Assembly: GCA_028694565.1 (NCBI GenBank)
Contig: JAQVKR010000039.1
Location: 1 to 11,553 of the forward strand
From: Gammaproteobacteria bacterium
GTDB lineage: Bacteria; Pseudomonadota; Gammaproteobacteria; DSM-26407
Direction of reading: 5' to 3'
DNA length: 11,553 nucleotides
Positions 1 through 11,553 of this stretch are shown here, piece after piece (within the stretch, counting starts at the first letter, position 1; every line of letters begins with the position of its first letter). The position numbers and the translations under genes are program-made. Below the pieces are notes generated by a model. It had not been told where the DNA came from and searched no databases. It worked only from the letters and a program-made list of their open reading frames with translations.

Positions 1-1347
1 GGGGCGGAACTGCAGGTGGTGGCGGGCGTGGCGGGCGATGGCCGTGCGCCGCGGGTCCATGACGATGAGGGTCTTGCCGGCGCGGACGGCGTTCTTGACG
101 AAGGTGGCGGCCACCGGGTGGTTGTCGGTGGTGTTGGAGCCGATGATGACGATGACGTCGGCCTCGGCCACGTCGGCCACCGGGTTGGACACCGCGCCCG
201 AGCCGATCATCTCCAGCAGCGCCGCCACCGAGGAGGCGTGGCAGAGCCGCGTGCAGTGGTCCACGTTGTTGCTGCCGAAGCCCGTGCGCACCAGCTTCTG
301 GAACAGGTAGGCCTCCTCGTTGGAGCCCTTGGCGGAGCCGAACCCGGCCAGGGACTTCGGGCCGTGCGCAGCACGGATGGCCTTGAGCCCGGAGGCGGCC
401 AGCTCCAGGGCCTCATCCCACTCCGCCTCGCGGAAGCCGCGGAACGGGTGGTCGTGATCGAGCCCGAGCTCCGGCGCCTTGGGCGCGTCGGGCCTGCGGA
501 TGAGCGGCTTGGTCAGGCGGTGGCGGTGGTGGACGTAGTCGAAGCCGTAGCGTCCCTTCACGCACAGGCGGCCGTGGTTGGCCGGCCCGTCGCGGCCGGA
601 CACGTGGAGTATGCGGTTGCCCTTCACGTGGAAGGTGAGCTGGCAGCCGACGCCGCAGTAGGGGCAGACCGAGTCCACGGCGCGGTCCGGCGTCTCCAGC
701 GCCACGTCGCCGGCCGGCGCCAGCGCGCCGGTGGGGCAGGCCTGGACGCACTCGCCGCAGCCCACGCAGCTGCTCGCGCCCATGGGATCGCCCAGGTCGA
801 AGACGATGTGGGCCCGGTTGCCGCGGGCGGCGTAGCCGATGACGTCGTTGGCCTGGACCTCGCGGCAGGCGCGCAGGCAGCGGGTGCACTGGATGCAGGC
901 GTCCAGGCGCACCGCGATGGCCGGGTGGGAGGCGTCCGCCGCCACCCCGGGGCGGGCCGGGAAGCGCGGCGGCCCCAGCTCCAGCTTGCGGCGCCAGTGG
1001 TCGAGCTCGTTGTGCGGCGTGTACGCCGTCTCGGGCATGTCGGAGGCGAGCAGTTCCAGCACCAGCCGCTGGGCGCGGCGGGCGCGCCCGGTGGCGCTGC
1101 GGACCGCCATCCCCTCGGTGGGGACGCGGCAGCAGGCGGGCGCCAGCACCCGCTCGCCCTCGATCTCCACCACGCAGGCGCGGCAGTTGCCGTCGGCGCG
1201 CTGACCGTCCTGGTGGCAGAGGTGGGGAATCTCCACGCCGTGGCGGCGCGCCGCCTGCAGCAGGGTCTCGCCGGGATTCGCCGTCAGGCTCCGGCCGTCC
1301 AGGGTGAAGGTGACGCTGCCGGGGGCGGTCTCGGGGGGCGCGGACAC
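1..1347 (-). CDS. fdsA: NAD-dependent formate dehydrogenase alpha subunit (Mo/W-bisPGD), N-terminal 449 residues; partial at window edge
   Basis: This is the catalytic subunit that oxidises formate to CO2 in the cytoplasm and passes electrons through Fe-S clusters to the diaphorase subunit encoded upstream. The frame is open to base 1, so the rest (probably another 450-500 residues) lies outside. Visible in order: a [2Fe-2S] domain with Cys44, Cys55, Cys58 and Cys72; two ferredoxin motifs, CIQCTRCLRAC (151-161) and CVGCGECVQAC (194-204); the molybdopterin-domain cluster CPYCGVGC (228-235) with Cys262; and Lys264 in VKGRYG. FGSNNVDHCTRLCHAS follows, whose second Cys (Cys369) sits where E. coli FdhF has selenocysteine, so this is a Cys enzyme. 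The start is GTG at 1347, overlapping the upstream TAG by one base (TAGTG), with GAGGAG at 1356-1361 eight bases before it. The NuoG-like N-terminus plus the diaphorase partner points to the soluble NAD+-linked type (FdsABG), not FdhF or FdnG. Confidence 0.93.
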   Translation of the reverse strand, partial: MSAPPETAPGSVTFTLDGRSLTANPGETLLQAARRHGVEIPHLCHQDGQRADGNCRACVVEIEGERVLAPACCRVPTEGMAVRSATGRARRAQRLVLELLASDMPETAYTPHNELDHWRRKLELGPPRFPARPGVAADASHPAIAVRLDACIQCTRCLRACREVQANDVIGYAARGNRAHIVFDLGDPMGASSCVGCGECVQACPTGALAPAGDVALETPDRAVDSVCPYCGVGCQLTFHVKGNRILHVSGRDGPANHGRLCVKGRYGFDYVHHRHRLTKPLIRRPDAPKAPELGLDHDHPFRGFREAEWDEALELAASGLKAIRAAHGPKSLAGFGSAKGSNEEAYLFQKLVRTGFGSNNVDHCTRLCHASSVAALLEMIGSGAVSNPVADVAEADVIVIIGSNTTDNHPVAATFVKNAVRAGKTLIVMDPRRTAIARHARHHLQFRP

Positions 1348-3023
1348 TACTCGATCTCCTCGGGGAAGTGGCGCAGCACGGAGCGCAGCGGGTTGGGGGC
1401 GGCCTGGCCCAGGCCGCAGATGGAGGCGTCGCTCATCACCGCGGCGAGCTCCTCCAGCAGGGCGCGGTCCCACACCGGCGCCTCCATGAGGGCGGCGGCC
1501 TTGCCGGTGCCCACCCGGCAGGGGGTGCACTTGCCGCAGGACTCGTGGGCGAAGAAGCGCATGGCGTTCAGCGCCGCGGCGCGGGCGCTGTCCCGCTGCG
1601 AGAGGACGATGATGGCGGCGGAGCCGATGAAGCAGCCGTGCTCCTCCAGGGTGCCGAAGTCGAGCGGCAGGTCGGCCAGGGCGGCGGGCAGGATGCCGCC
1701 GGAGGCGCCGCCCGGGAACCAGGCATGGAGCTCGTGGCCCTCCGCCATGCCGCCGCAGTGCTCGTCGATGAGCTCGCGCAGGGTGATGCCGGCCGGCGCC
1801 AGGTGCACGCCCGGCTTGCGCACCCGGCCGCTCACCGAGAAGCTGCGCAGCCCGCTGCGGCCGTGGCGCCCCTGGTCCGCGAACCACGCCGCGCCGCGCT
1901 CGAGGATGTCCCGCACCCAGTACAGTGTCTCCAGGTTGTGCTCCAGGGTGGGACGCCCGAACAGGCCCTGCTCGGCGATGTAGGGCGGGCGCAGGCGGGG
2001 CATGCCGCGCTTGCCCTCGATGGACTCGATCATGGCCGACTCCTCGCCGCAGATGTAGGCGCCGGCGCCGCGGCGCAGGTGCAGCCCGGGGAGGGCGCAG
2101 GGCGGGTCCGCGCGCAGGCGGTCCAGCTCGCGCCCGAGCAGCGCCCGGCAGCCGGCGTACTCGTCGCGCAGGTAGATGTAGACCGCTTCCGCCTCCACCG
2201 TGCGCGCGGCCACCAGCAGCCCCTCCAGGAACCGGTGGGGATCGCGCTCCAGGTAGTGGCGGTCCTTGAAGGTGCCGGGCTCGCCCTCGTCGATGTTCAC
2301 CGCCATCAGCCGCGGGCCCGGGTGGCCGCGCACGATGCGCCACTTGCGCCCGGCGGGGAAGCCGGCGCCCCCGAGGCCGCGCAGGCGGGCGTCCTCCAGG
2401 GCGGCGATGACCGCCTCCGCCGTGAGCTCGCCGCTCTCCAGCAGCGCCGGCAGCCGGTAGCCGCCGCCGGCGCGGTAGGCGTCGTAGCCGATGGCCTCGG
2501 GCAGCGGCGCCCGGGTGGCGCCGTTTTCCACCGCCCGCGCCACCGCCTCGGGCGTGGCGCGGTCCACCGGGTTCTGTCCCACCACCGCCACGGGCGCCTC
2601 CGCGCAGCGGCCCACGCAGGGCACGGCCTGCACCCGCACGCCCGCGCCGAGGGCCGACTTCAGCGCCGCCAGCAGCTCGCCGGCGCCGGCCAGCTCGCAG
2701 CTCACCGAGTCGCACACCCGCACCGTCAGCGGCGGCGGGGGCGGCTCGCCGTCCGGCACCGGATCGAAGTGGTGGTAGAAGCTCGCCACCTCGTAGACCT
2801 CGGCGGCGGCGAGGTTCAGCTCCTCGGCCAGCGCCGTGAGGTGGGCCGTGGAGAGGTGGCCGTGGGCGTCCTGGATGCGGTGCAGGTGCTCGATGAGCAG
2901 GTCGCGGCGGCGGGGGGCGTCGCCCAGCAGGGCGCGCACCTCGCGCAGGGCCCGGGGTTCGGCGGTGCGGCCGCGCGGGCGTCCGCGGGCCCGGCGGGGC
3001 CGGTCCGGTGTGGCGCTGGTCAA
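1347..3023 (-). CDS. fdsB: formate dehydrogenase beta subunit, fused NuoE-like and NuoF-like diaphorase (NAD+/FMN)
   Basis: This 558-residue protein takes electrons from the alpha subunit and reduces NAD+ at FMN. An Arg/Pro-rich leader (about 1-40) precedes a complete NuoE-type domain (about 40-168). That domain has the helical front end and four candidate [2Fe-2S] ligands, Cys104, Cys109, Cys136 and Cys140 (C-x4-C...C-x3-C). The NuoF-type part has the FMN/NAD loop GLGGAGFPAGRKW (216-228), GAYICGEESA, and the N3-type [4Fe-4S] ligands Cys496, Cys499, Cys502 and Cys536 (SCGKCTPC...ICGLGQ). The start is TTG at 3023, chosen because GAGGAG lies seven bases upstream (3031-3036). It is one base into an overlap with the alpha gene, so the two are translationally coupled. 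In fds operons a separate gamma subunit (FdsG) normally carries the NuoE-like role; none is visible upstream here. HoxF of NAD-linked hydrogenases has the same architecture, but the molybdenum subunit next door settles the formate assignment. Confidence 0.9.
   Translation of the reverse strand: MTSATPDRPRRARGRPRGRTAEPRALREVRALLGDAPRRRDLLIEHLHRIQDAHGHLSTAHLTALAEELNLAAAEVYEVASFYHHFDPVPDGEPPPPPLTVRVCDSVSCELAGAGELLAALKSALGAGVRVQAVPCVGRCAEAPVAVVGQNPVDRATPEAVARAVENGATRAPLPEAIGYDAYRAGGGYRLPALLESGELTAEAVIAALEDARLRGLGGAGFPAGRKWRIVRGHPGPRLMAVNIDEGEPGTFKDRHYLERDPHRFLEGLLVAARTVEAEAVYIYLRDEYAGCRALLGRELDRLRADPPCALPGLHLRRGAGAYICGEESAMIESIEGKRGMPRLRPPYIAEQGLFGRPTLEHNLETLYWVRDILERGAAWFADQGRHGRSGLRSFSVSGRVRKPGVHLAPAGITLRELIDEHCGGMAEGHELHAWFPGGASGGILPAALADLPLDFGTLEEHGCFIGSAAIIVLSQRDSARAAALNAMRFFAHESCGKCTPCRVGTGKAAALMEAPVWDRALLEELAAVMSDASICGLGQAAPNPLRSVLRHFPEEIE
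1356..1361 (-). promoter_or_regulatory. ribosome binding site for fdsA, deciding a GTG start
   Basis: On the minus strand GAGGAG lies inside the last codons of fdsB, eight bases before the GTG at 1347. The GTG shares its first base with the last base of the fdsB stop codon TAG. Confidence 0.8.
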
Positions 3024-3030
3024 GTGGTCT

Positions 3031-3036
3031 CTCCTC
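3031..3036 (-). promoter_or_regulatory. ribosome binding site for fdsB, deciding a TTG start
   Basis: On the minus strand GAGGAG stands seven bases before TTG at 3023. No in-frame ATG in the first part of the gene has a comparable site, so the rare TTG start is preferred. Confidence 0.75.
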
Positions 3037-3083
3037 GTTGCTGTGATCTGTTTCCGTCCGGAACCGGGGTGCGCCGCGGGCCG

Positions 3084-3662
3084 TCAGCGCCGGTCGGCGG
3101 CCGGGGCGTCGGCGTGCCGCAGGAGGGTGCGCACCGTCTCGGCGATGGTCTCCGGCGGGATGCCGTAGGGCAGCTTGCGCACCAGCCGGCCGCCGGTGTC
3201 GATCACGTAGAGATCGGCGCTGTGGTCCACCGGGTAGAAGCCGCTGGCCTCGCGGGGACCGAAGCTGTAGCGCACGCGGTACTGGTCGGCGACGGCGCGG
3301 ATCGCGTCGGGGCTGCCGGTGAGCGCGGTGATGCGGGGGTCGAACCAGCCCACGTAGTTGCGCAGCACCTCCGCGGTGTCCCGCTCCGGGTCGACGCTCA
3401 CGAACAGGGGCTGCACCCGGTCGGCCGACTCGCCGAGCTGGCGCAGGGCGGCGGTGACCTCGCCCAGGGTGGTCAGGCAGATGTCCGGGCAGTGGGTGTA
3501 GCCGAAGAACAGCAGCACCACCCGGCCGCGCGCCTGCTCCAGGCTGAAGGGGGCGCCGTCGTGGCCGGTGAGGGTGAAGTCCCCGCCCAGGCGCGCCTGG
3601 GCCGGGGCGCTGAGCGCGATCAGCAGCGCCAGCAGCGCCGGCCAGGGGCTGAAGTGTCTCAT
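3084..3662 (-). CDS. sco: SCO1/SenC family periplasmic copper chaperone, first gene of the sco-fds unit
   Basis: This is a 192-residue exported thioredoxin-fold protein of the SCO family, which delivers copper to, or reduces cysteines in, extracytoplasmic copper proteins. Residues 1-23 form a Sec signal peptide ending in AQA-R. The Cu(I)/thiol motif CPDIC (Cys58, Cys62) follows FFGYTH, then VSVDPERDT, and the distal copper ligand His147 in VDHSADLYVID, so all three canonical ligands are present. The ATG start has GGGAGA six bases upstream (3669-3674). It lies 60 bases ahead of fdsB on the same strand and divergent from mtoX. Cytoplasmic formate dehydrogenase has no known need of a copper chaperone. 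Its likely client is therefore the divergently encoded copper-dependent methanethiol oxidase or a terminal oxidase; this is inference from position. Confidence 0.92.
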   Translation of the reverse strand: MRHFSPWPALLALLIALSAPAQARLGGDFTLTGHDGAPFSLEQARGRVVLLFFGYTHCPDICLTTLGEVTAALRQLGESADRVQPLFVSVDPERDTAEVLRNYVGWFDPRITALTGSPDAIRAVADQYRVRYSFGPREASGFYPVDHSADLYVIDTGGRLVRKLPYGIPPETIAETVRTLLRHADAPAADRR

Positions 3663-3840
3663 TCTGCGTCTCCCATCGGGTCATCCTGTCTCATTCCGGC
3701 CCTCCCCCGGCACGGACCGGGTCGTCGCGGACCGACGATGCAGGATGCGTACCAGCCCGTCCGCGCCCGGCTTCCGCGCGCCGCGCCCCCTCCTGGCGCC
3801 CGCGCGGGATCCGGATGGGCCGGGGATCACCGCGCGGCAC

Positions 3841-3872
3841 GCGCGGGTGTCACGCTTTCCGGGCACTCGCGC
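3841..3872. promoter_or_regulatory. imperfect inverted repeat, candidate activator binding site upstream of the sigma-54 promoter
   Basis: The arms GCGCGGGTGTCA (3841-3852) and GGGCACTCGCGC (3861-3872) match as inverted repeats at 9 of 12 positions, around an 8-base centre. The midpoint is about 120 bases before the predicted start of transcription, in the usual range for enhancer-binding proteins of sigma-54 systems. In DNA this GC-rich, GCGC-type dyads can arise by chance. Confidence 0.3.
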
Positions 3873-3951
3873 GGCCAGTCTGTCGCCGCGGTGCCACGCC
3901 CGGCCCCCGGCGCCCGGCCGGGGCGATTGTCCTACGCGGTTGCAGGGGCAT

Positions 3952-3967
3952 TGGCATTGAAATTGCC
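3952..3967 (+). promoter_or_regulatory. sigma-54 (RpoN) type -24/-12 promoter for mtoX
   Basis: TTGGCATTGAAATTGCC gives TGGCA at the -24 element (GG at 3953-3954) and TTGC at the -12 element (GC at 3965-3966). There are exactly ten bases between the GG and GC dinucleotides, as sigma-54 requires. All nine core positions match; the less conserved sixth -24 base is T, not C. Transcription would start near 3978, leaving a leader of about 115 bases before mtoX. Read as sigma-70, the TTGGCA has no acceptable -10 hexamer at the right distance. Confidence 0.68.
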
Positions 3968-3984
3968 TTTTGTCAGTTTAGGGC

Positions 3985-4016
3985 TGCCCGTGCGACCGGA
4001 TGCCGAGGCACGGGCA
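3985..4016 (+). promoter_or_regulatory. stem-loop at the start of the predicted mtoX leader
   Basis: TGCCCGTG (3985-3992) and CACGGGCA (4009-4016) form a perfect 8-bp inverted repeat with a 16-base loop. It begins only a few bases after the predicted transcription start, so it could stabilise the 5' end of the transcript or act as a DNA operator. Function is not shown by the sequence. Confidence 0.4.
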
Positions 4017-4074
4017 CGGCGGCGCGAGGGTTCACAAATCAACGGCAGCCCCCCAAAGGAATCCGTTTCTGAGC

Positions 4075-4083
4075 GAGGTGGAG
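4075..4083 (+). promoter_or_regulatory. ribosome binding site of mtoX
   Basis: GAGGTGGAG ends nine bases before ATG 4093. It supports this start over the upstream in-frame ATG at 4000, which has no such site. Confidence 0.7.
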
Positions 4084-4092
4084 TCAATCATC

Positions 4093-5475
4093 ATGAACAA
4101 GCGCAAGATGACTGTGACGCAGAAGTTCCGGCGCAACGCGGCGGTGGCCGCCTTCGGGCTGGGCGCCCTGGCGGTGGGCATGGTGCCGGTGGCGGGCCAG
4201 GCCGACGAGACCTGCATGTCCCCCTACATGGCCAAGATCGTCGGCCAGGAGGACTATGTCTACGTCTGGACCCTGGGCATCGAGGGGGTCGGCGACGGCC
4301 AGGACAAGCTGGTGACCGTGGACGTGAACCCCAACTCCAGGACCTATGGCCAGGTGGTGAACTCCCTGTCGGTGGGCGGGCGCAACGAGGCCCACCACTC
4401 CGGCTTCACCGATGATCGCATGTACCTCTGGGCCGGGGGCCTGGATACCAACAAGATCTTCATCTTCGACGTGCACAGCGATCCCCGCAATCCGACGCTC
4501 AGCCGGGTGATCACCGACTTCGTCTCCGAGAGCGGCGGCGTGGTGGGCCCCCACACCACCTACGCCCTGCCGGGCCGGATGATGATCACCGGCCTGTCCA
4601 ACAACAAGGACCACGGCGGGCGCACGGCCCTGGTGGAGTACACCAACGAGGGCGAGTACGTGGCCACCTACTGGATGCCCACCGACGACAACCTCGGGGG
4701 CGCGAAGAAGACCGGCAAGTATGCCGACGGCTACAACTACGATGTGCGGGTGCTGCCGCGGCGCAACTCCATGTTCACCTCCTCCTTCACCGGCTGGTCC
4801 AACTACATGATGGACTTCGGCAAGATGCTGAACGACCCGGAGGCGATGAAGCGTTTCGGCAATACCGTCGTGCGCTGGGACCTGCACCAGCGCAAGCCCA
4901 AGGAGGTGTTCGACGTGCCCGGCGCGCCGCTGGAGATCCGCTGCGCCTGGCAGCCGGATCACAACTACTGCTTCACCACCACGGCGCTGACCTCCGAGAT
5001 CTGGCTCATCCACGAAAATGGCCAGGGCGAGTGGAAGGCCGACAAGGTGGGCACCGTGGGCGATCCCTCCAAGGTGCCCCTGCCGGTGGACATCTCCATC
5101 AGCAGCGACGACGGCATGCTGTGGGTCAACACCTTCATGGACGGCAAGACCCGCGGCTTCGACATCACCGATCCCTTCAACCCGAAGCAGGTCCACGAGG
5201 AGAAGATAGGCGCCCAGGTGAACATGGTCTCCTCCAGCTGGGACGGCAGGCGCCTCTACTACACCAGCTCGCTGCTCGCCAACTGGGACAAGAAGGGCGG
5301 GGACAACGAGCAGTATCTCAAGCTCTACGAGTGGGACGGCAAGAATCTCGCCAAGAAGTTCGAGATCGACTTCATGAAGGAGAACCTCGGCCGCGCCCAC
5401 CAGATGCGCTTCGGCGCCTACAGCCTGTACGCCGGCAAGCCCGCGGAGGGCGGCCGGGTCGCCCAGGGCGACTGA
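4093..5475 (+). CDS. mtoX: methanethiol oxidase, selenium-binding protein SBP56 family, periplasmic
   Basis: The family (bacterial MTO, human SELENBP1) oxidises methanethiol with O2 and water to formaldehyde, H2S and H2O2, and the bacterial enzyme is copper-dependent. This 460-residue protein shows the family landmarks in order: VTVDVNPNSRTYGQV, EAHHSGF, IFIFDVHSDPRNP, GPHTTYALPG, PLEIRCAW, DISISSDDGMLWVNT, GFDITDPFNPKQV, SSSWDGRRLYYTSSL, and a C-terminal RAHQMRFG where relatives have AHELRYP. Residues 1-37 are a signal peptide (basic front, hydrophobic core, cleavage likely GQA-DE), with Arg13-Arg14 but no full Tat consensus. I chose ATG 4093 over an in-frame ATG at 4000 because GAGGTGGAG lies just upstream and the signal peptide begins here. 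It leads a plus-strand unit with a SCO-MauG fusion and a TlpA protein, which fits its copper and maturation needs. The older name 'selenium-binding protein' says nothing about its reaction. Confidence 0.9.
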   Translation: MNKRKMTVTQKFRRNAAVAAFGLGALAVGMVPVAGQADETCMSPYMAKIVGQEDYVYVWTLGIEGVGDGQDKLVTVDVNPNSRTYGQVVNSLSVGGRNEAHHSGFTDDRMYLWAGGLDTNKIFIFDVHSDPRNPTLSRVITDFVSESGGVVGPHTTYALPGRMMITGLSNNKDHGGRTALVEYTNEGEYVATYWMPTDDNLGGAKKTGKYADGYNYDVRVLPRRNSMFTSSFTGWSNYMMDFGKMLNDPEAMKRFGNTVVRWDLHQRKPKEVFDVPGAPLEIRCAWQPDHNYCFTTTALTSEIWLIHENGQGEWKADKVGTVGDPSKVPLPVDISISSDDGMLWVNTFMDGKTRGFDITDPFNPKQVHEEKIGAQVNMVSSSWDGRRLYYTSSLLANWDKKGGDNEQYLKLYEWDGKNLAKKFEIDFMKENLGRAHQMRFGAYSLYAGKPAEGGRVAQGD

Positions 5476-5487
5476 TCCGGGCCGTGA

Positions 5488-5508
5488 CCGGACCCGCGAG
5501 GGGTCCGG
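5488..5508 (+). terminator. first of two tandem hairpins after mtoX
   Basis: CCGGACCC (5488-5495) pairs perfectly with GGGTCCGG (5501-5508) around a 5-base loop GCGAG. It begins 12 bases after the mtoX stop. There is no T-run behind it, so it may be a transcript-stabilising or processing hairpin and not a true intrinsic terminator. Confidence 0.45.
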
Positions 5509-5520
5509 CGGCAGACCCGC

Positions 5521-5550
5521 GGAGCCGCTCCCCCCGGGGGGAGCGGCTCC
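5521..5550 (+). terminator. second hairpin: perfect 30-base palindrome between mtoX and the SCO-MauG gene
   Basis: GGAGCCGCTCCCCCC is followed directly by its exact reverse complement, giving a 15-bp palindrome with no spacer; folding would leave a tight loop at the C/G junction. It is very stable but followed by CTTGG with no U-tract. It could attenuate read-through so that the structural enzyme is made in excess of its maturation factor, or protect the 3' end of a processed mtoX message. Confidence 0.5.
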
Positions 5551-5628
5551 CTTGGCGACGGGCGGCCCGAAACCCGCGCCGGAGAGGCGGCGCGGCGACG
5601 GGCCGCGTGACACGAGGATGCGACAGGC

Positions 5629-7602
5629 ATGAGCGCTTCATTGCGAAACTTCACCACCGGGGCCGCGCTGCTGGGCCTCGCACTGGCCGCGCCGGTCCAT
5701 GCCGACCAGCGCGACACCGAGCCGCCCGGGGCGGGGGCGGAGATCCAGGCGCCTTTCTACACCGGCGTCGACTACGAGCCGCCGCCGCCCGGCAGCTACC
5801 GGCTGCCCCCCCTCGGGAGCGCCGCCGACGGGGAGGTTCTCGCCAGCGACGGCAGCCGCCTGCGGCTGCACGATCTGTTCGATGGCCGCTATGTCCTGCT
5901 CAGCTTCATCTACAGCCACTGCAGCGATACCAACGGCTGCCCCCTGGCCACCGCCGTGCTGCACCGGATGCAGAAACTGATGGCGGAGGATCCGCAGCTG
6001 GCGGAGAACCTGCGCCTGGTGAGCCTCTCCTTCGATCCCGAGTTCGACACGCCCGAGGCGATGGAGCTCTACGGCGCGGCATTCCGGGACGGCCCCGGCG
6101 ACTGGCGCTTTCTCACCACCGCCTCCCAGCGGCAGCTGGATCCGCTGCTCACCGCCTACGGCCAGCCGGTGATCCGCGACCTGGACGCCGAGGGCCGGCC
6201 CCTCTCGAGCTTCTCCCACATCCTGCGGGTCTTCCTCGTCGATCGCGAGCGGCGCATCCGCAACATCTACAGCGTGGCCTTCCTCTACCCGAAGCTCATC
6301 GTCAACGACGTGAAGACCCTGCTGCTGGAGGAGCGGGCGGAGGGGCCGCCGAGGATCTCCGCCGAGCCGGCCGGGCTGCCGGACCGCTACCGCCCCGGCG
6401 ACTACAAGGAGGGCTACGAGAGCGCGGACTACGCCACCCGCAGCCTGGCGGTGGAGAACCGGCACGGGCGGCCGGCGGACCTGCTGGCGCTGGTGGAGCG
6501 CACCCCGCTCGGGCTGCCGCCGGTGCCGGTGCCGGCGGCCAACCCGGTGTCCCGCGAGAAGCTGGAGCTGGGGCGCAAGCTCTTCTACGACCGCCGCCTC
6601 TCCAGCAACGACACCTTCTCCTGCGCCATCTGCCATATCCCGGAGCAGGGCTTCACCAGCCACGAGCTGAGCACGGCGGTGGGAGTGGAGGGGCGCACCG
6701 TGCGGCGCAACTCGCCCACCCTCTACAACGTCGCCTACGCCGAGCGGCTGTTCCACGACGGGCGCGAATTCTCGCTGGAGCACCAGGTCTGGGGTCCCCT
6801 GCTGGCCCGCAACGAGATGGCCAACCCCTCCATGGGCTGGGTGCTGGAGAAGATCCGCCGCATGCCCGACTACGGCGGGCTGTTCGAGGCGGCCTTCCCC
6901 GGGCGCGGCCTCGACGCCGAGACCCTCGGCGAGGCGCTGGCCACCTACCAGCGCGCGCTGGTCTCCGGCAACTCTCCCTTCGACCGCTGGCGCTACGGCG
7001 GCGAGGCGGAGGCGCTCGGGCCGGCCGCCCGGCGCGGCTTCGAGCTGTTCACCGGGAAGGCGGGCTGCGCGGCCTGCCACACGGTGGGCGATGATTACGC
7101 CCTGTTCACCGACAACGGGATGCACAACACCGGCGTCGGCTACCGCGAGTCCATGCGCCGGCCGCCGGAGAGGAAGCCGGTGCTGCTGGCGCCGGGGGTC
7201 ACGGTGGAGGTGGACATGGCGGTGGTGGAAGCGGTCTCCGAGCGTCCGCCCGGCGACGTGGGGCTCTACGAGGTGACCCAGGACCCGGGCGATCGCTGGA
7301 AGTACCGCACGCCCATGCTGCGCAACGTGGCCCTCACCGCCCCCTACATGCACAATGGCTCGCTGGGCACCCTGCGGGAGGTGGTGGCGTTCTACAACCG
7401 CGGCGGGGTGGGCAACGAGCTGCTCTCGCCCCTCATCCGTCCGCTCGGCCTCACCGGGCGGGAGATGGACGACCTGGTGGCCTTCCTGGAATCCCTGACC
7501 GGGGACAACGTGGAGCTCATCATCGCCGACGCCTTCGCCGCACCCGTGGGAGACATCACCCGTGACGATCCGAGCTGGAGCCATGAGAACCGCCTGCGCT
7601 AG
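5629..7602 (+). CDS. SCO domain fused to MauG/di-haem cytochrome c peroxidase domain, periplasmic
   Basis: This single 657-residue chain has a signal peptide (1-25, VHA-D), a SCO-like thioredoxin domain (about 55-245) and a di-haem peroxidase domain of the CcpA/MauG family (about 300-650). The SCO part has Cys98 and Cys104 in CSDTNGC, five residues apart and not the usual three, and a candidate distal ligand His197 in FSHILRVFLVD. The haem part has CAICH (332-336) and CAACH (480-484), LELGRKLFYDRRLSSNDTFSC, and TPMLRNVALTAPYMHNG (561-577), which probably supplies an axial ligand. Where many relatives have FWDGR, this protein has FHDGR (His376). GAGGA lies ten bases before the ATG. MauG completes the tryptophan tryptophylquinone cofactor of methylamine dehydrogenase, while CcpA reduces H2O2. 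Here the domain may mature MtoX or dispose of its peroxide. Identity of both domains is clear; the client is inferred from linkage. Confidence 0.9.
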   Translation: MSASLRNFTTGAALLGLALAAPVHADQRDTEPPGAGAEIQAPFYTGVDYEPPPPGSYRLPPLGSAADGEVLASDGSRLRLHDLFDGRYVLLSFIYSHCSDTNGCPLATAVLHRMQKLMAEDPQLAENLRLVSLSFDPEFDTPEAMELYGAAFRDGPGDWRFLTTASQRQLDPLLTAYGQPVIRDLDAEGRPLSSFSHILRVFLVDRERRIRNIYSVAFLYPKLIVNDVKTLLLEERAEGPPRISAEPAGLPDRYRPGDYKEGYESADYATRSLAVENRHGRPADLLALVERTPLGLPPVPVPAANPVSREKLELGRKLFYDRRLSSNDTFSCAICHIPEQGFTSHELSTAVGVEGRTVRRNSPTLYNVAYAERLFHDGREFSLEHQVWGPLLARNEMANPSMGWVLEKIRRMPDYGGLFEAAFPGRGLDAETLGEALATYQRALVSGNSPFDRWRYGGEAEALGPAARRGFELFTGKAGCAACHTVGDDYALFTDNGMHNTGVGYRESMRRPPERKPVLLAPGVTVEVDMAVVEAVSERPPGDVGLYEVTQDPGDRWKYRTPMLRNVALTAPYMHNGSLGTLREVVAFYNRGGVGNELLSPLIRPLGLTGREMDDLVAFLESLTGDNVELIIADAFAAPVGDITRDDPSWSHENRLR

Positions 7603-8164
7603 CCCGGGCTTCCCGGCGCCCGCCGCCGTGGGAGGACGGAGGCCGGGGGCTTTGCGCGGCCTGCTGCTGGGCCTGCTGATGCTCGCCGCCGGCAGAGCGC
7701 CGGCGGCGGCTGGCGAGGGGATGCGGCCGGTGGAGGGCCGGCCGGCCGCCGCCCCCCTGGCGCTGCCCGACCTGGAGGGCGGCACCGTGCGCCTGGCGGA
7801 CCTGCGGGGACGCTGGGTGCTGGTGAACTTCTGGGCCGCCTGGTGCGCCCCCTGCCGCCGGGAGATGCCCTCGATGGAGCGGGCCTGGCGCACCCTGCGG
7901 CCCGCGGGGCTGGAGCTGCTGGCGGTGCACGCGGGCCCCAGCGCCGCCGCCGCGCGGAAGTTCCTCGACCAGGTGCCGGTGGGCTTCACCGTGGTGGTGG
8001 ACGAGGCGCTCGGGGTCGCCGGCTGGGACATCCCCGGGCTGCCGGTCACCTACCTGGTGGACCCGCGGGGCCGCCTGGCGGCGGTGGCCGTGGGGGACCG
8101 CGAGTGGGACAGCCCGGCGATGATCGCGCGCCTGCGCGAGCTGATGGGGGCGGAAGGGGACTGA
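7562..8164 (+). CDS. TlpA/ResA-like periplasmic thiol-disulfide oxidoreductase
   Basis: This thioredoxin-fold protein has the active site WCAPC (Cys95, Cys98 counted from the first start), NFWAAWCAPCRREMP context and the cis-proline loop GLPVTYLVDPRGR. TlpA-type proteins keep SCO and copper-site cysteines reduced in the periplasm, matching the SCO domain encoded just upstream. The start is uncertain. GTG 7562 (41-base overlap with the upstream gene) has GGGAG nine bases before it. ATG 7583 has only a badly spaced GGAG. TTG 7652 has GGAGG (7638-7642) nine bases before it and would give a compact signal peptide, MRGLLLGLLMLAAGRAPAAAG. The longer forms put about 30 residues ahead of the hydrophobic core, so the real protein may begin at 7652 (170 residues). 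It closes the mtoX unit and ends 9 bases from the convergent SCO gene. Confidence 0.85.
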   Translation: MTIRAGAMRTACASPGFPAPAAVGGRRPGALRGLLLGLLMLAAGRAPAAAGEGMRPVEGRPAAAPLALPDLEGGTVRLADLRGRWVLVNFWAAWCAPCRREMPSMERAWRTLRPAGLELLAVHAGPSAAAARKFLDQVPVGFTVVVDEALGVAGWDIPGLPVTYLVDPRGRLAAVAVGDREWDSPAMIARLRELMGAEGD

Positions 8165-8173
8165 GGCCGCCCC

Positions 8174-8875
8174 TCAGCGCGCCCCGGCGCGCACGATGGC
8201 CTGGATGTCCGTGGCCATGATCCGGGGAGCGTGGGGCGCGCCGTACAGCGCGTGGAGCCCACCCCGGGGGTTGGTGAGGAGGATGGCCGCGGAGGGATCC
8301 ACCAGGTAGCCCATGGCGCTGCCGGGCGCCTCCACCCGTTCGTAGCGGATGCCCACCTGCCCGGCCAGGGCGCGCAGCGCCGCCGGCGCGCCCGTGGCGC
8401 CGAGGAACGATTCGTGGAAGTAGGGGACGTAGGCGGTCAGCCGCTCCGCGGTGTCCCGCCCGGGGTCCACCGAGATGAAGACGGTCCGGTAGGGGGTGTC
8501 CGGATCCTCCGCCGCCAGCAGGTGCCGCACCTGGGCCAGGTTGGCGAGCGCGGTGGGGCAGACGTCCGGGCAGTGGGTGTAGCCGAAGGCGAGCAGGCTC
8601 CAGCGGCCCCTGAGGGCGTCCAGGGTGAAGGGCGTTCCGTGGTGGTCGGTGAGGCTGAAGGGGGCCAGGGCCTTCGGCGAGGGCAGCAGGGTGGCCTGGC
8701 CGAGGGCCGGCTGCGGGGCGGCCGCCGCCGCGGGCGCCGCTCGCTCGCCCGCTTCCCGCGGGCCTCCCAGGGCGTAGGCCAGCCCGAGGGCGATCGCCGG
8801 CAGCAGCGCGGCCAGGAGCCACAGATACGCCCCGGGCCGTGCCGGTGCCGCGGTGTTCGCCGTCATCGTCTTCAT
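8174..8875 (-). CDS. sco: SCO1/SenC family protein lacking the usual distal histidine
   Basis: This 233-residue protein is anchored by a membrane segment at about 16-37 and has a periplasmic SCO domain. It shows PFTLDALRG, FGYTHCPDVCP (Cys102, Cys106) and FISVDPGRDT. At the position of the conserved copper-ligand His (VDHSA in relatives) it has Pro194 in YLVDPSAAILL. The two cysteines remain, so it may act as a thiol reductase, or bind copper with one of the later His residues (LHALYGAPHAP). The start is ATG 8875, overlapping the ATPase stop by four bases (ATGA), with GAGGAGAGGA just upstream (8881-8890). The in-frame extension upstream, to 9004, lies inside the ATPase gene and lacks membrane-protein character. 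As the third gene after ctaB and a copper ATPase, it probably serves cytochrome c oxidase CuA assembly. Confidence 0.9.
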   Translation of the reverse strand: MKTMTANTAAPARPGAYLWLLAALLPAIALGLAYALGGPREAGERAAPAAAAAPQPALGQATLLPSPKALAPFSLTDHHGTPFTLDALRGRWSLLAFGYTHCPDVCPTALANLAQVRHLLAAEDPDTPYRTVFISVDPGRDTAERLTAYVPYFHESFLGATGAPAALRALAGQVGIRYERVEAPGSAMGYLVDPSAAILLTNPRGGLHALYGAPHAPRIMATDIQAIVRAGAR

Positions 8876-11280
8876 GCCAGTCCTCTCCTCTGTGGCACCG
8901 TCATTGCCGCCGCCTCTTCCGGCGCCCGGGGCGTGCGCGGCAACGCCGCGGGGACCGGCCCCGGATCCGCCTCGGCCCCGAGAACAGGGCGCGAGGAATT
9001 CCACACCACCAGCAGGCTGCTGGTGGCCATGGCCAGGGCGGCGAAGAGCGGGTTGAGCAGGCCGCTCACGGCCAGCGGGATGGCCACCGCGTTGTAGAGC
9101 AGGGCCCAGCCGATGTTCTGCCGGACCCGGAGGCGGGTGGTCCGGATCAGATCGAGAGCGGTGAAGATCCGCTCCAGCCGGTCGCCCGGTATGACGATGT
9201 CGGCGGCCTCCGCCGCCAGCGGCGTGGGGGCGCCGAAGGCGATGCCGAGATCGGCCGCCGCCAGCGCCGGGGCGTCATTGCTGCCGTCGCCCACCATCAC
9301 CACCCGTCCTTCGGTCCGGAGCTGCCGCACCACCGCCGCCTTCGCCTCGGGGGGCAGTCCGGCGTGGAAGGCGTCCACGCCCTCCTCGTAGCCGCTCGGG
9401 TGCTCCGCCCCGGTGAGCAGTACGACCCGGTGGCGCCGGCGCAGCCGGGCCAGGACCGCCGCCCACTCGGGCCGCTGGCTGTCGCGGGTGATCACGGCGC
9501 CCCGGGCGCCGCCCTCCCAGCCCACGAAGGAGACGACCCCCTCGCCGGGCAGGCGGGCGGCGGCCGCGGCGGCCAGCGGCGCCGGAATGTCCCAGCCGAG
9601 CTGCGTGAAGAGCCCGCGGCTGCCCACCACCACGCGCCGTCCGGCCACCCGCGCCTCGGCGCCCCTGCCGGGGTGGAGCCGGAGGGTGTCGGCCACGAGG
9701 CGGGTGTCGAGCGCGGCGATGGCCGCGGCGATGGGGTGGGTGGAGAGACGTTCCACCGCGGCCGCCAGGGCGGCGGTCTCCGGCGGCCCCAGCACCTCCA
9801 CCACGCTCATGCGCCCGGTGGAGAGGGTGCCGGTCTTGTCCAGGGCGACGGTGTCGAAGCGCGGCGGCTTGGCGAACGTGTCGGCGCTGGTGACGAGAAT
9901 GCCCCGGCGCAGGGCGCTGCCCACCGCGTTGGCGGTGGTGAGCGGAATGGCCAGCCCGAAGGTGCAGGGGCAGGAGACGATGAGGGTCGCCAGCCCGGCC
10001 AGCAGGGCCGCTCCCGGCGCCGCTCCGCCCAGCAGCAGCGAGCCGGCCACCAGCGCCGCGAGCCCGAGCACCACCGGGACGAAGAAGCGGGCGATGCGAT
10101 CGGCGAAGCCCTGGACGCCGGCGCTGGAGCCTTGGACGTTCCAGAGCAGGCGCGCCAGGTGCTCGACGCGGCTGGTCACCGCCGCGCCCACCGCGATCTC
10201 CAGCTCGCCTTCCACCAGCCGGGTGCCGCCGAGGACCGTGTCGCCCGTGCCGCGGGCCCGGGGGAAGGGCTCGCCGGTGAGCAGGGATTCGTTCACCGCT
10301 CCCTGGCCCGCGTGGACGGTGCCGTCCACCGGAATCGGCTCGCCGGGGCCCACCAGCACCCGGTCGCCCGGCCGCAGCTGGTGGATCTCGATCTCCTTCA
10401 CCGTGCCGTCGCGGCGGGCGCGGGCCCGCGGCGTCCAGGCCTCCAGCAGGCGGCTCAGCTCCCGGGTGGCCTCCACCTTCGCCGCGCGCTCGAAGTGGCG
10501 GCCCAGGGTCACCACCGCCACGATCACGGCGGCCACGTCGAAGTAGAGATGGGGCCCGCCGCTGAAGATCTGGCCCACGCTGTAGCCGTAGGCGGCCAGG
10601 ATGGCGATGGCCAGCAGGTTGTCCATGTTGGGCATCCGCGCCCGCAGCCCGATCCAGGCGCCGCGCAGGATGGGGGCGCCGACCAGGAAGACCTGCAGGG
10701 TGGCGAGCACCAGCAGCGCCCGCGGGGCGGCGTAGAAGGCGAGCCAGCCCACCGGGGCCAGCTCCTCCAGGGCCACCAGGCCGAGATCGACCGGGTAGTA
10801 GAAGGCCGCGTAGAGCATCATCACCATGCCGGCGAGGCTGGCGCCGCCGATGACCCGCGCCAGCTCGCGGGTCTCGTCCGGCTCCGGCGCGGGTTCGCCG
10901 CGCAGCCGGGCGCGGTAGCCGCCGATGCTCAGTGCGGCGGACAGATCCGCCTCGGCGATGCGGGCCGGGTCGTAGACCACCCGGGCGGTGGAGGTGGCGT
11001 AGCTGGTGCTCACCGAGAGGATGCCGTCCACCCGGGCGGCGCGGTGCTCGATGAGGTACTCGCAGGAGGAGCAGTGCATCCCGTCGATGCGCAGGAAGGC
11101 CTCCACGCCCTCGGGCGGATGCGCGGGCGCGGGCGCCGCCGCGGCGGCCTTCCCGGCGGTGGCGAGGATCCCCTCGCCGAAGGTGCGGAACACCGCGCTG
11201 CAGCCGTAGCAGCAGAAGGGCTGGCCCGCCTCCATGACGGGAGGTGCCGGGGTGGGTGCGCCGCAGAGCCTGCAGTCCAT
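8872..11280 (-). CDS. Cu(I)-translocating P1B-type ATPase, CopA/CcoI-FixI-like
   Basis: This 802-residue membrane pump uses ATP to move Cu(I) from cytoplasm to periplasm, either for detoxification or to supply oxidase assembly. Order of elements: a Cys-rich N-terminal module CRLCG...FCCYGC (3-27) typical of CcoI/FixI-like pumps; one HMA domain with GMHCSSC (67-73); membrane segments with MPNMDNLLAIAI; an A-domain LLTGEP; the transmembrane metal site CPC (Cys437, Cys439) in SCPCTFGLA; the phosphorylation site Asp481 in DKTGT; an N-domain STHP; GDGSNDAP (664-671); and final membrane helices with YN and MATSS, the Cu(I)-type signature. The start is ATG 11280, 13 bases after the ctaB stop, with a weak ribosome site that suggests coupling. 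The end overlaps the sco start. Neighbours ctaB and sco favour an oxidase-supply role over export for resistance, but the choice cannot be settled from sequence. Confidence 0.93.
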   Translation of the reverse strand: MDCRLCGAPTPAPPVMEAGQPFCCYGCSAVFRTFGEGILATAGKAAAAAPAPAHPPEGVEAFLRIDGMHCSSCEYLIEHRAARVDGILSVSTSYATSTARVVYDPARIAEADLSAALSIGGYRARLRGEPAPEPDETRELARVIGGASLAGMVMMLYAAFYYPVDLGLVALEELAPVGWLAFYAAPRALLVLATLQVFLVGAPILRGAWIGLRARMPNMDNLLAIAILAAYGYSVGQIFSGGPHLYFDVAAVIVAVVTLGRHFERAAKVEATRELSRLLEAWTPRARARRDGTVKEIEIHQLRPGDRVLVGPGEPIPVDGTVHAGQGAVNESLLTGEPFPRARGTGDTVLGGTRLVEGELEIAVGAAVTSRVEHLARLLWNVQGSSAGVQGFADRIARFFVPVVLGLAALVAGSLLLGGAAPGAALLAGLATLIVSCPCTFGLAIPLTTANAVGSALRRGILVTSADTFAKPPRFDTVALDKTGTLSTGRMSVVEVLGPPETAALAAAVERLSTHPIAAAIAALDTRLVADTLRLHPGRGAEARVAGRRVVVGSRGLFTQLGWDIPAPLAAAAAARLPGEGVVSFVGWEGGARGAVITRDSQRPEWAAVLARLRRRHRVVLLTGAEHPSGYEEGVDAFHAGLPPEAKAAVVRQLRTEGRVVMVGDGSNDAPALAAADLGIAFGAPTPLAAEAADIVIPGDRLERIFTALDLIRTTRLRVRQNIGWALLYNAVAIPLAVSGLLNPLFAALAMATSSLLVVWNSSRPVLGAEADPGPVPAALPRTPRAPEEAAAMTVPQRRGLA

Positions 11281-11293
11281 GGTCGCGCCGTGG

Positions 11294-11553
11294 TCAGCCG
11301 AGGAGCCAGACGTCGAGCACCGTCGCCAGGAGCAGGGCGCTGAGCTGGACCAGGGAGGCGAAGAAGCTCCCCATCGCCACCCGCGGCGAGGCATCCCCCA
11401 CCATCTGCAGGTTGCGGTAGATGAAGTAGCACCCGCCCCCGGCGGCTCCGAGCAGGTAGATCCAGCCCATGCCGTGGAAGACGGGCAGCAGGGAGACGAT
11501 CACCAGCACCACCGTGTTGGCCAGCACGGCCCGGGCGGCCACGGCGTTGCCGG
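11294..11553 (-). CDS. ctaB: protohaem IX farnesyltransferase (haem O synthase) CtaB/CyoE, C-terminal part; partial at window edge
   Basis: The last 85 residues of a UbiA-family membrane protein are visible, and the frame is open to the right edge. The segment runs from GNAVAARAVLANTVVLV through SLLPVFHGMGWIYLLGAAGG and a YRNLQ loop to a final hydrophobic helix, LSALLLATVLDVWLLG. This pattern (SLLP, GM-G--YL, then a helix ending in LD/LVD near the C-terminus) is that of CtaB/CyoE. The enzyme farnesylates protohaem to haem O in the inner membrane for haem-copper oxidases. It is followed 13 bases later by the copper ATPase and then sco, consistent with an oxidase assembly operon. The catalytic aspartate motifs lie outside the window, so the call rests on the tail and its context. 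Confidence 0.8.
   Translation of the reverse strand, partial: GNAVAARAVLANTVVLVIVSLLPVFHGMGWIYLLGAAGGGCYFIYRNLQMVGDASPRVAMGSFFASLVQLSALLLATVLDVWLLG

Follow-up and report, generated by a model that had tools for sequence, protein, structure and literature searches.

Why should the genes for an NAD-linked formate dehydrogenase (FDH) stand back to back with the gene for a methanethiol oxidase, mtoX? The question is raised by a stretch of 11,553 nucleotides from a gammaproteobacterium, referred to hereafter as the window, which is the entire contig C107 of genome G000 (a 3.02 Mb draft in 511 contigs, 88% complete). We propose, from sequence comparison, that the window is probably the methanethiol end of a one-carbon (C1) island of Dsr-type sulfur oxidisers, in which MtoX would replace methanol dehydrogenase (MDH) as the source of formaldehyde for a route through tetrahydromethanopterin (H4MPT) and an FDH of the FDH1 type. 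From left to right, the minus strand carries fdsA, fdsGB and sco, the plus strand mtoX, a SCO-MauG fusion gene and a TlpA-like gene, and the minus strand again sco2, a copA-type ATPase gene and the end of ctaB:

About 1 to 1347, minus strand: fdsA (fdh1A), predicted FDH1-type alpha subunit (NAD-linked Mo/W formate dehydrogenase), its 3' part cut by the contig end.
1347 to 3023, minus strand: fdsGB (fdh1B), predicted fused NuoE-like and NuoF-like FDH1 beta subunit; best solved relative 7e5z_B.
3084 to 3662, minus strand: sco, copper chaperone SCO1/SenC, first gene of the sco-fdsGB-fdsA run (PF02630, 152.9 bits).
3952 to 3966, plus strand: TGGCATTGAAATTGC, sigma-54 (-24/-12) promoter-like site upstream of mtoX.
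4093 to 5475, plus strand: mtoX, predicted methanethiol oxidase of the SBP56 family (NF052453, 766.9 bits).
5629 to 7602, plus strand: SCO-MauG fusion with SCO1-SenC and CCP_MauG domains, presumed MtoX maturase.
7562 to 8164, plus strand: TlpA/ResA-like thiol-disulfide protein (AhpC-TSA, motif WCAPC), last gene of the mtoX run.
8174 to 8875, minus strand: sco2, second SCO gene (PF02630, 129.3 bits).
8872 to 11280, minus strand: copper-type P1B ATPase with an HMA domain (TIGR01525, 412 bits, over the cut-off).
11294 to 11551, minus strand: C-terminal end of ctaB/cyoE (haem O synthase), cut by the contig end (TIGR01473).

Genome G001, a congener that is 99% complete, served as the reference for conservation. 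The gene order of the window was kept in G001, with six genes at 78–94% protein identity (FdsGB 94%, the FdsA part 89.8%, sco 92%, MtoX 92%, SCO-MauG 89% and TlpA about 79%). Because the same order is found in the congener, the mto-FDH arrangement is not a product of chance. Profile matches bear out the layout given in an earlier note on this DNA, with mtoX, the SCO-MauG fusion and the TlpA-like gene divergent from sco and FDH; the FDH genes, which that note placed within 3084–8164, lie instead at 1347–3023 and about 1–1347. Genes in related loci were called by a simple codon-score procedure, and their names come from family searches or alignments unless said to be by eye.

By family score and conserved residues, the predicted MtoX is a methanethiol oxidase. 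It passed the equivalog model NF052453, at 766.9 bits against a cut-off of 650. The listed open reading frame begins at 4000; we chose the ATG at 4093, which has the ribosome-site-like GAGGTGGAG ahead of it, and the N-terminus appears signal-like by eye. The putative copper ligands H101, H102, H154 and H436, matched to Hyphomicrobium His89, 90, 140 and 412 by spacing and order rather than by alignment, are kept in 107, 106, 107 and 107 of 107 aligned rows (window included), as is Cys41, within TCMSPYM, in all 107. In the Ruegeria pomeroyi methanethiol oxidase (MTO), the working cysteine sits in TCQSPYM, as described in PMC10936201. Tryptophan residues special to MtoX were tabulated against eight distant SBP56 proteins; that alignment was weak, and we therefore make no claim on the cofactor. 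As the function is read from family score and residues alone, one might suppose that this SBP56 protein acts on another thiol or sulfur compound and makes no formaldehyde. The equivalog score, the retained copper-ligand histidines and the cysteine of TC(Q/M)SPYM, and linkage to two unrelated formaldehyde routes (H4MPT and FrmA-FghA, below) make this very unlikely. A second, distant SBP56-family gene with 24% identity was seen about 3 kb from mtoX in G056 (locus L127, 12415–13842).

The adjoining enzyme is, as predicted from its subunits, a two-subunit NAD-linked FDH of the FDH1 type. FdsGB matched 7e5z_B, a tungsten FDH beta subunit, with 738 bits over residues 4–555, the next relative scoring 284; FdsA, of which only 450 codons lie in the window, matched the tungsten FDH alpha subunits 7vw6_A and 7e5z_A with 584 bits, followed by 9wxb_B with 274.5. 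We take 7e5z and 7vw6 to be the tungsten FDH1 of Methylorubrum extorquens. Since autotrophy is common among Dsr-type sulfur oxidisers, FDH1 might be thought mainly to reduce CO2 to formate for biosynthesis, its place beside mtoX being a regulatory coincidence. Mo/W formate dehydrogenases are indeed reversible (PMC10385643). The NAD-linked FDH1 type of the enzyme and the oxidative formaldehyde route carried by the island nevertheless argue against this reading, which we consider most improbable.

An FDH acting after MtoX makes sense only if formaldehyde is converted to formate. Contig C173 of G000 carries FhcC, FhcD, RFAPS, MtdB and Mch, and C511 carries Fae and a PTPS-like gene; Mch and Fae are present in both G000 and G001. 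In G001, about 43 kb of contig C5 (about 28.7–71.4 kb) hold FDH1, mtoX and H4MPT genes together. The first part of this region comprises FhcA, FhcB, a PTPS-like gene, a sigma-54 activator gene, fdsA-fdsGB-sco, mtoX-SCO-MauG-tlpA and an oxidase locus; the second comprises FhcC, FhcD, RFAPS, MtdB, Mch, MptN, Fae, a second PTPS-like gene and a predicted H4MPT-linked protein. The distance from mtoX to mch is 21.9 kb. As contig ends split the genes in G000, the linkage there is inferred from G001. FhcA and FhcB (53% and 41% identity to references) were sought in the congener G001 and seen there. Matches over curated cut-offs were obtained for FhcA (G045, G001), FhcD and FhcC (G045), and RFAPS (TIGR00144) and one_C_unchar_1 (G001), while FhcB (274 against 327.8 bits, locus L025), MptN (185 against 350) and both PTPS-like genes fell below theirs. 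Methylene-H4MPT dehydrogenase (MtdB) obtained no NCBIfam name and was assigned with Pfam Mpt_N. Neither G000 nor G001 has FrmA over its cut-off, so no glutathione route was found in them.

The association extends across the class. Of 369 genomes drawn evenly from it, 31 have MtoX and 47 have Mch over the respective cut-off, and 68 have FDH1-beta, called at E 1e-140 or better. Mch was present in 23 of the 31 genomes with mtoX as compared with 24/338 without it (Fisher p 3.5e-17), and FDH1-beta in 20/31 as compared with 48/338 (p 2.7e-9); these p values overstate independence, because close kin were counted singly. Four of the 24 Mch genomes lacking mtoX carry sub-cut-off mtoX pieces (G121, G174, G240, G350). 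In eight of the 23 genomes with both genes, mtoX lies within 22 kb of mch (G001, G045, G185, G142, G254, G246, G056, G333), and these eight span six families (f1, f45, f142, f134, f56, f122). The contig-edge mtoX fragment of G350 is a ninth linked case (9/24 with the fragment included). FDH1-beta lies within 10 kb of mtoX, always divergently, in six of the 20 genomes having both (G000, G001, G045, G185, G246, G142), from families f1, f45, f134 and f142. In the MtoX tree, built from 107 proteins, seven changes are required to account for the H4MPT/FDH1-linked state, at least four of them forced by supported branches. Between FDH1 and sco-mtoX of locus L034 lies a pyridine nucleotide-disulfide oxidoreductase gene (2370–3641; sulfide:quinone reductase-like by eye).

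What MtoX may stand in for is indicated by the distribution of MDH, which was tested in the 55 genomes with MtoX or Mch over cut-off and exceeded the TIGR03075 cut-off in 34. There was no match over that cut-off in G000 (88% complete) or G001 (99%). The 47 Mch genomes divide into 30 with MDH and 17 without. Among the MDH-less genomes 14/17 have mtoX (15 with the G350 fragment), as compared with 9/30 of the MDH-bearing ones (12 with fragments); the two lacking mtoX are G200 (64% complete) and G311 (78%), the latter having MDH fragments. Among genomes having both genes, mtoX and mch are linked in 8/14 without MDH and in 0/9 with it (p 0.007). Eight genomes have MDH no more than 25 kb from mch, and four of them (G349, G341, G240, G012) were picked for that linkage and mapped; in each, MDH and FDH1 are close to a core of [Fae-MptN-Mch-MtdB-RFAPS] and [FhcB-A-D-C]. 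This core is found next to mtoX and its maturation genes in G045, G056, G333, G142, G254 and G350, and part of it is in view beside mtoX in G185, G246, G001 and a named Thiogranum metagenome-assembled genome (L025). It is because the same H4MPT core lies beside either MDH or mtoX that we suggest that MtoX takes the place of MDH. On a tree of 47 Mch proteins, the linked state needs five changes (4–5 in bootstrap trees; G000 counted as linked) and MDH absence six (without G200 and G311).

The adjacency of mtoX and FDH1 could also reflect mere clustering of C1 genes, in an island that handles formaldehyde or formate from other sources such as methylamines, sarcosine or demethylations. FDH1-beta does occur in the 48 class genomes without mtoX over cut-off mentioned above, and H4MPT genes accompany MDH without mtoX in 18/30 genomes. 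Judged by the distribution of mtoX, mch and MDH, simple clustering is nonetheless unlikely, as the mtoX-mch linkage is confined to genomes in which MDH is missing, mtoX is present in 15/17 of the H4MPT genomes without MDH (in one as a fragment), and the linked states need repeated changes on both trees. Our broader conclusion, held with only slightly better than even confidence, is that H4MPT-FDH1 islands are modular, with an interchangeable front end that is either MDH or, in several Dsr-type families, MtoX with SCO-MauG-TlpA (some of them sigma-54-controlled), and that the latter organisms may be methylotrophs on methanethiol.

A formaldehyde route of the other type accompanies mtoX elsewhere. 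Five of the eight MtoX genomes without Mch over cut-off have FrmA over cut-off, and one or both of the routes tested (H4MPT and glutathione) are represented in 28/31 MtoX genomes; G063, G299 and G342 have neither Mch nor FrmA over cut-off. FrmA and S-formylglutathione hydrolase (FghA) genes lie 3–7 kb from mtoX in G154, G344, L038, L043, L062, L073, L080 and L085. L073 and G154 are one locus, and the FrmA-FghA names were confirmed for L062, L073 and G344. L062 comes from a cultured strain, Sedimenticola selenatireducens DSM 17993, and combines mtoX-SCO-MauG-sco with frmA-fghA. No mch over cut-off was found in G154 or G344.

The site ahead of mtoX may mean sigma-54 control in part of these loci. 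The sigma-54 -24/-12 consensus is TGGCA-N6-TTGC. The sequence TGGCATTGAAATTGC fits it and is kept in G001, and we infer from this motif that the window mtoX has a sigma-54-type promoter. The window holds two matches to the consensus where 0.05 were expected, a number reached in 0/200 shuffles; the second (8893–8907, plus strand) falls within the 3' end of the ATPase gene, in antisense orientation. TGG[CT]A-N6-TTGC was found upstream of mtoX in 7/107 other loci (mononucleotide shuffles: mean 0.32, maximum 3), a few of the 107 occurring twice, from two collections. The seven are G001, L025, L034, L037, L046, G246 and G333, and six of them are H4MPT/FDH1-linked. L037, from Thiogranum, carries FolE2 and DHPS genes upstream, and its contig stops shortly after mtoX; it was counted as linked in the following test only, a choice made after its site had been seen. 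With the window included, the site is upstream of mtoX in 8/13 linked loci as compared with 0/95 others (Fisher test). A like site heads the RFAPS-MtdB-Mch run in G000, G001, G056, G333, L025 and the MDH-type G240, but 21–27 bases inside the alignment-derived start; therefore either the true start is later or the site is coding sequence. Other sites precede fdsGB by 98 (G246) and 77 (G349) bases, sco by 95 (G056) and MDH by 290 (G349). In the linked loci, 14/20 sites fall in operon-head regions making up 4.7% of the sequence, although some sites were already known when the operon heads were defined, and kin genomes are among those counted. In G001 a GAF-PAS-sigma54-Fis activator gene (Sigma54_activat, 223.9 bits) adjoins fdsA; the window contig ends before that position.

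On the sulfur side, dsrA was over cut-off in 17/35 genomes searched, among them all nine mtoX-mch-linked genomes, and was partial in G000 and present in G001. Among genomes with mtoX and mch, it was found in 11/14 without MDH as compared with 1/9 with MDH. These data bear on a further explanation, that MtoX serves detoxification by removing toxic methanethiol, with H4MPT-FDH1 disposing of the formaldehyde and the NADH incidental. Methanethiol degradation has been proposed to serve as such in methanotrophs (PMC9003020), and the adjoining sco2, copA, ctaB and COX1 genes would fit a role in oxidase protection. Against this, a route that takes formaldehyde to CO2 through an NAD-linked FDH, in the position that MDH has in islands proposed to be energy-yielding (PMC6712303, PMC11171427), exceeds disposal needs, and with dsrA in all nine linked genomes the sulfur could be used in respiration. 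We therefore treat detoxification as possible but doubtful, and prefer MtoX as the formaldehyde source of an energy-yielding island.

Several observations weigh against this preference. The absence of MDH means only that no match exceeded the TIGR03075 cut-off. The association of MDH absence with mtoX presence was not significant after correction for descent on the Mch tree; with four supported independent pairs (two without G200 and G311), none in the opposite direction, there are too few for the corrected test to reach significance. In 5/23 genomes mtoX and mch are 102–1876 kb apart on one contig (G003, G040, G136, G248, G363) and in 10/23 they are on different contigs (G000, G029, G091, G120, G180, G212, G216, G286, G315, G349); G003, G040, G180, G286 and G363 are MDH-less and still unlinked. 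The MDH-type island is not universal either, since MDH is near mch in only 8/30 MDH-bearing genomes. The search for FDH1-beta at E 1e-140 gave none in G333, a linked genome, dsrA over cut-off was not found in the MDH-less mtoX-mch genomes G003 and G363, and five linked loci (G045, G185, G142, G254, G056) have no sigma-54 site ahead of mtoX. The mch gene of G000 (L154, 8422–9345, on C173) is interrupted by an in-frame TGA close to the end of its contig, whereas that of G001 is open. A named sample, the best-scoring 80 of 382 loci, covered at most 10 kb on each side and included several short contigs, 46 of the 80 being Methylococcales by reading of titles. In the sequence so covered, 71/80 loci have none of the H4MPT, FDH1 and FrmA-FghA modules, one is H4MPT-linked (L025), two are FDH1-linked (L034, L046) and six are FrmA-FghA-linked. 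A draw across the phylum gave mtoX over cut-off in only 5/398 genomes, G000 included, too few to replicate the result beyond the class; draws at family and order level yielded just two genomes.

The pathway that we envisage begins with transcription of mtoX from the putative sigma-54-type promoter. In the periplasm, the SCO-MauG fusion, the separate SCO and the TlpA-like protein would load MtoX with copper and mature it oxidatively. By the known chemistry of the family, MtoX would cleave methanethiol to formaldehyde and a reduced sulfur species. Formaldehyde would enter the cytoplasm, where Fae would put it onto H4MPT; MtdB, Mch and the Fhc complex, for which the genes are present, would then release formate, and the FDH1 of the window would oxidise formate to CO2 with formation of NADH. 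The Fae-MtdB-Mch-Fhc-FDH pathway is known from methylotrophs. In the islands of methylotrophic relatives, pyrroloquinoline quinone (PQQ) methanol dehydrogenase is the formaldehyde source, and it is that place that MtoX would occupy here. The sulfur of methanethiol may pass to the reverse-Dsr route. The earlier note had proposed that MtoX-derived carbon ends in FDH, and this idea gains support of a comparative kind from FDH1 beside mtoX in several families and from H4MPT genes in the genome, its suggested search for formaldehyde oxidation genes elsewhere having turned up Fae, MtdB, Mch, FhcC and FhcD. The neighbourhood comparison that it advised gave conservation in G001 and linkage to FDH1 or mch in several families, although most mtoX loci are not so linked. 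Of the products that it named, H2S and H2O2 are in dispute, since a paper of 2024 reports that sulfane sulfur is formed and H2O2 is not (PMC10936201).

The mtoX-linked islands offer methanethiol as a testable formaldehyde source for one group of sulfur oxidisers. If the proposal is true, Dsr-type sulfur oxidisers would use both the carbon (H4MPT, FDH1) and the sulfur (Dsr) of methanethiol. Organic and inorganic sulfur cycling would thereby be connected in a way that escapes genome surveys in which methanol dehydrogenase is the gene scored, and the occurrence of H4MPT genes in organisms not known to be methylotrophs would be accounted for, at least in this group.

The SCO-MauG fusion is presumed to act on MtoX as a maturase, from its position and a proposal in the literature. 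Its SCO1-SenC domain spans residues 81–209 and its CCP_MauG domain residues 310–457; it has two CXXCH motifs, as in a di-haem MauG/MbnH-like domain, and a signal-like N-terminus by eye. In place of the canonical CX3C, the SCO domain of the fusion carries CX5CP (CSDTNGCP, residue 98), a motif present in 78/79 full-length fusions; the separate sco product, also with a signal-like N-terminus by eye, has CX3C (CPDIC), as do 33/33 separate SCOs. The nearest solved structure to the di-haem domain is 6e1c (165 bits), which we take to be MbnH, followed by bacterial cytochrome c peroxidases (146) and MauG (89). Identity as MauG of tryptophan tryptophylquinone (TTQ) biosynthesis failed (TIGR03791, 203.9 bits against a cut-off of 443.85), and so, although 6e1c is nearest, did membership of the MbnH family (TIGR04039, 242.2 against 362.85). 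Of the 80 named loci, 63 have at least 3.4 kb of sequence downstream of mtoX, and in 51 of these SCO-MauG follows mtoX within 5 kb; a TlpA-like cluster of 24 proteins occurs in 23/112 loci, at a median of 3.6 kb downstream. Upstream of mtoX, an SCO4226-like small protein (about 90 amino acids; PF14026 in L125) is found in 45/112 loci at a median of 0.9 kb, and two TetR-like regulator families (by eye) in 39/112 and 20/112 at medians of 1.5 and 1.2 kb.

To the right of the mto genes, 8174–11551 holds sco2, the copper-type P-type ATPase gene and ctaB, an adjoining oxidase maturation locus that in G001 runs on from sco2 through copA and ctaB to a COX1 gene. The ATPase and ctaB form a locus separate from the mto genes, and sco2 is probably part of this oxidase/copper locus rather than of the mto module. 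The ATPase start was picked by eye inside the open reading frame 8872–11394, and its TIGR01511 score (384.5 bits) is just below the cut-off of 397. The 85-residue ctaB fragment scored 38.5 bits with TIGR01473, under the cut-off, and is 69% identical to the G001 gene.

The plus-strand run itself is a known arrangement, as described in PMC5739008 and PMC6548844. Eyice 2017 reported mtoX with SCO1/senC and mauG, and fusions of both (PMC5739008), in keeping with what the earlier note said of Hyphomicrobium. Hyphomicrobium sp. VS and R. pomeroyi share with the window a copper-dependent MtoX with SCO and MauG maturation genes, but there SCO and MauG are separate genes and in the window they are fused; R. 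pomeroyi has an IclR regulator upstream, and the excerpted text of PMC5739008 describes no FDH linkage for this operon. That source also cites SBP56 near a selenocysteine FDH in methanococci (Self 2004). Methylophaga thiooxydans has the same order of mtoX, SCO1-MauG fusion and TlpA-like gene in two clusters reported in 2019 (mto-clusters 1 and 2; PMC6548844), so that the TlpA pairing, which the earlier note had thought less described, was already published. Signal peptides are reported there, and both MTOs are up-regulated on dimethyl sulfide (PMC6548844). Those clusters continue with pdo, sqrB and sulP, and the window instead with sco2-copA-ctaB; the M. thiooxydans FDH subunits stand under other locus tags (PMC6548844), whereas the window has FDH1 linked and its congener H4MPT genes as well.

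Among single components, the di-haem enzymes MbnH (6e1c) and MauG (3l4m and others) resemble the fusion in belonging to a di-haem family with two CXXCH and in the oxidative maturation of a partner protein, presumed here, and differ in that the window domain is fused to an SCO domain with CX5CP and scores under both named NCBIfam cut-offs. The FDH1 of Methylorubrum extorquens is likewise a two-subunit NAD-linked enzyme with a fused NuoE-NuoF beta subunit; it is a tungsten enzyme, and the window gene, whose metal would be W or Mo, adjoins mtoX. Among top-ranked matches in the open-licence literature, we found no report of FDH1 beside mtoX or of mtoX inside an H4MPT cluster, and the placing of mtoX in an H4MPT-FDH1 island, in the position of MDH in sulfur oxidisers, appears to be new. 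A close counterpart is Ca. Thiodiazotropha. Our MDH-type genome G349 has the same MtoX sequence as Ca. Thiodiazotropha endolucinida, for which an MDH-type C1 cluster is published (PMC6712303). Ca. Thiodiazotropha shares with the window's genus H4MPT formaldehyde oxidation and a tungsten-type FDH in a sulfur oxidiser, but its formaldehyde source is PQQ methanol dehydrogenase (PMC6712303, PMC11171427), where the window's genus, with no MDH over cut-off, has mtoX and its maturation genes.

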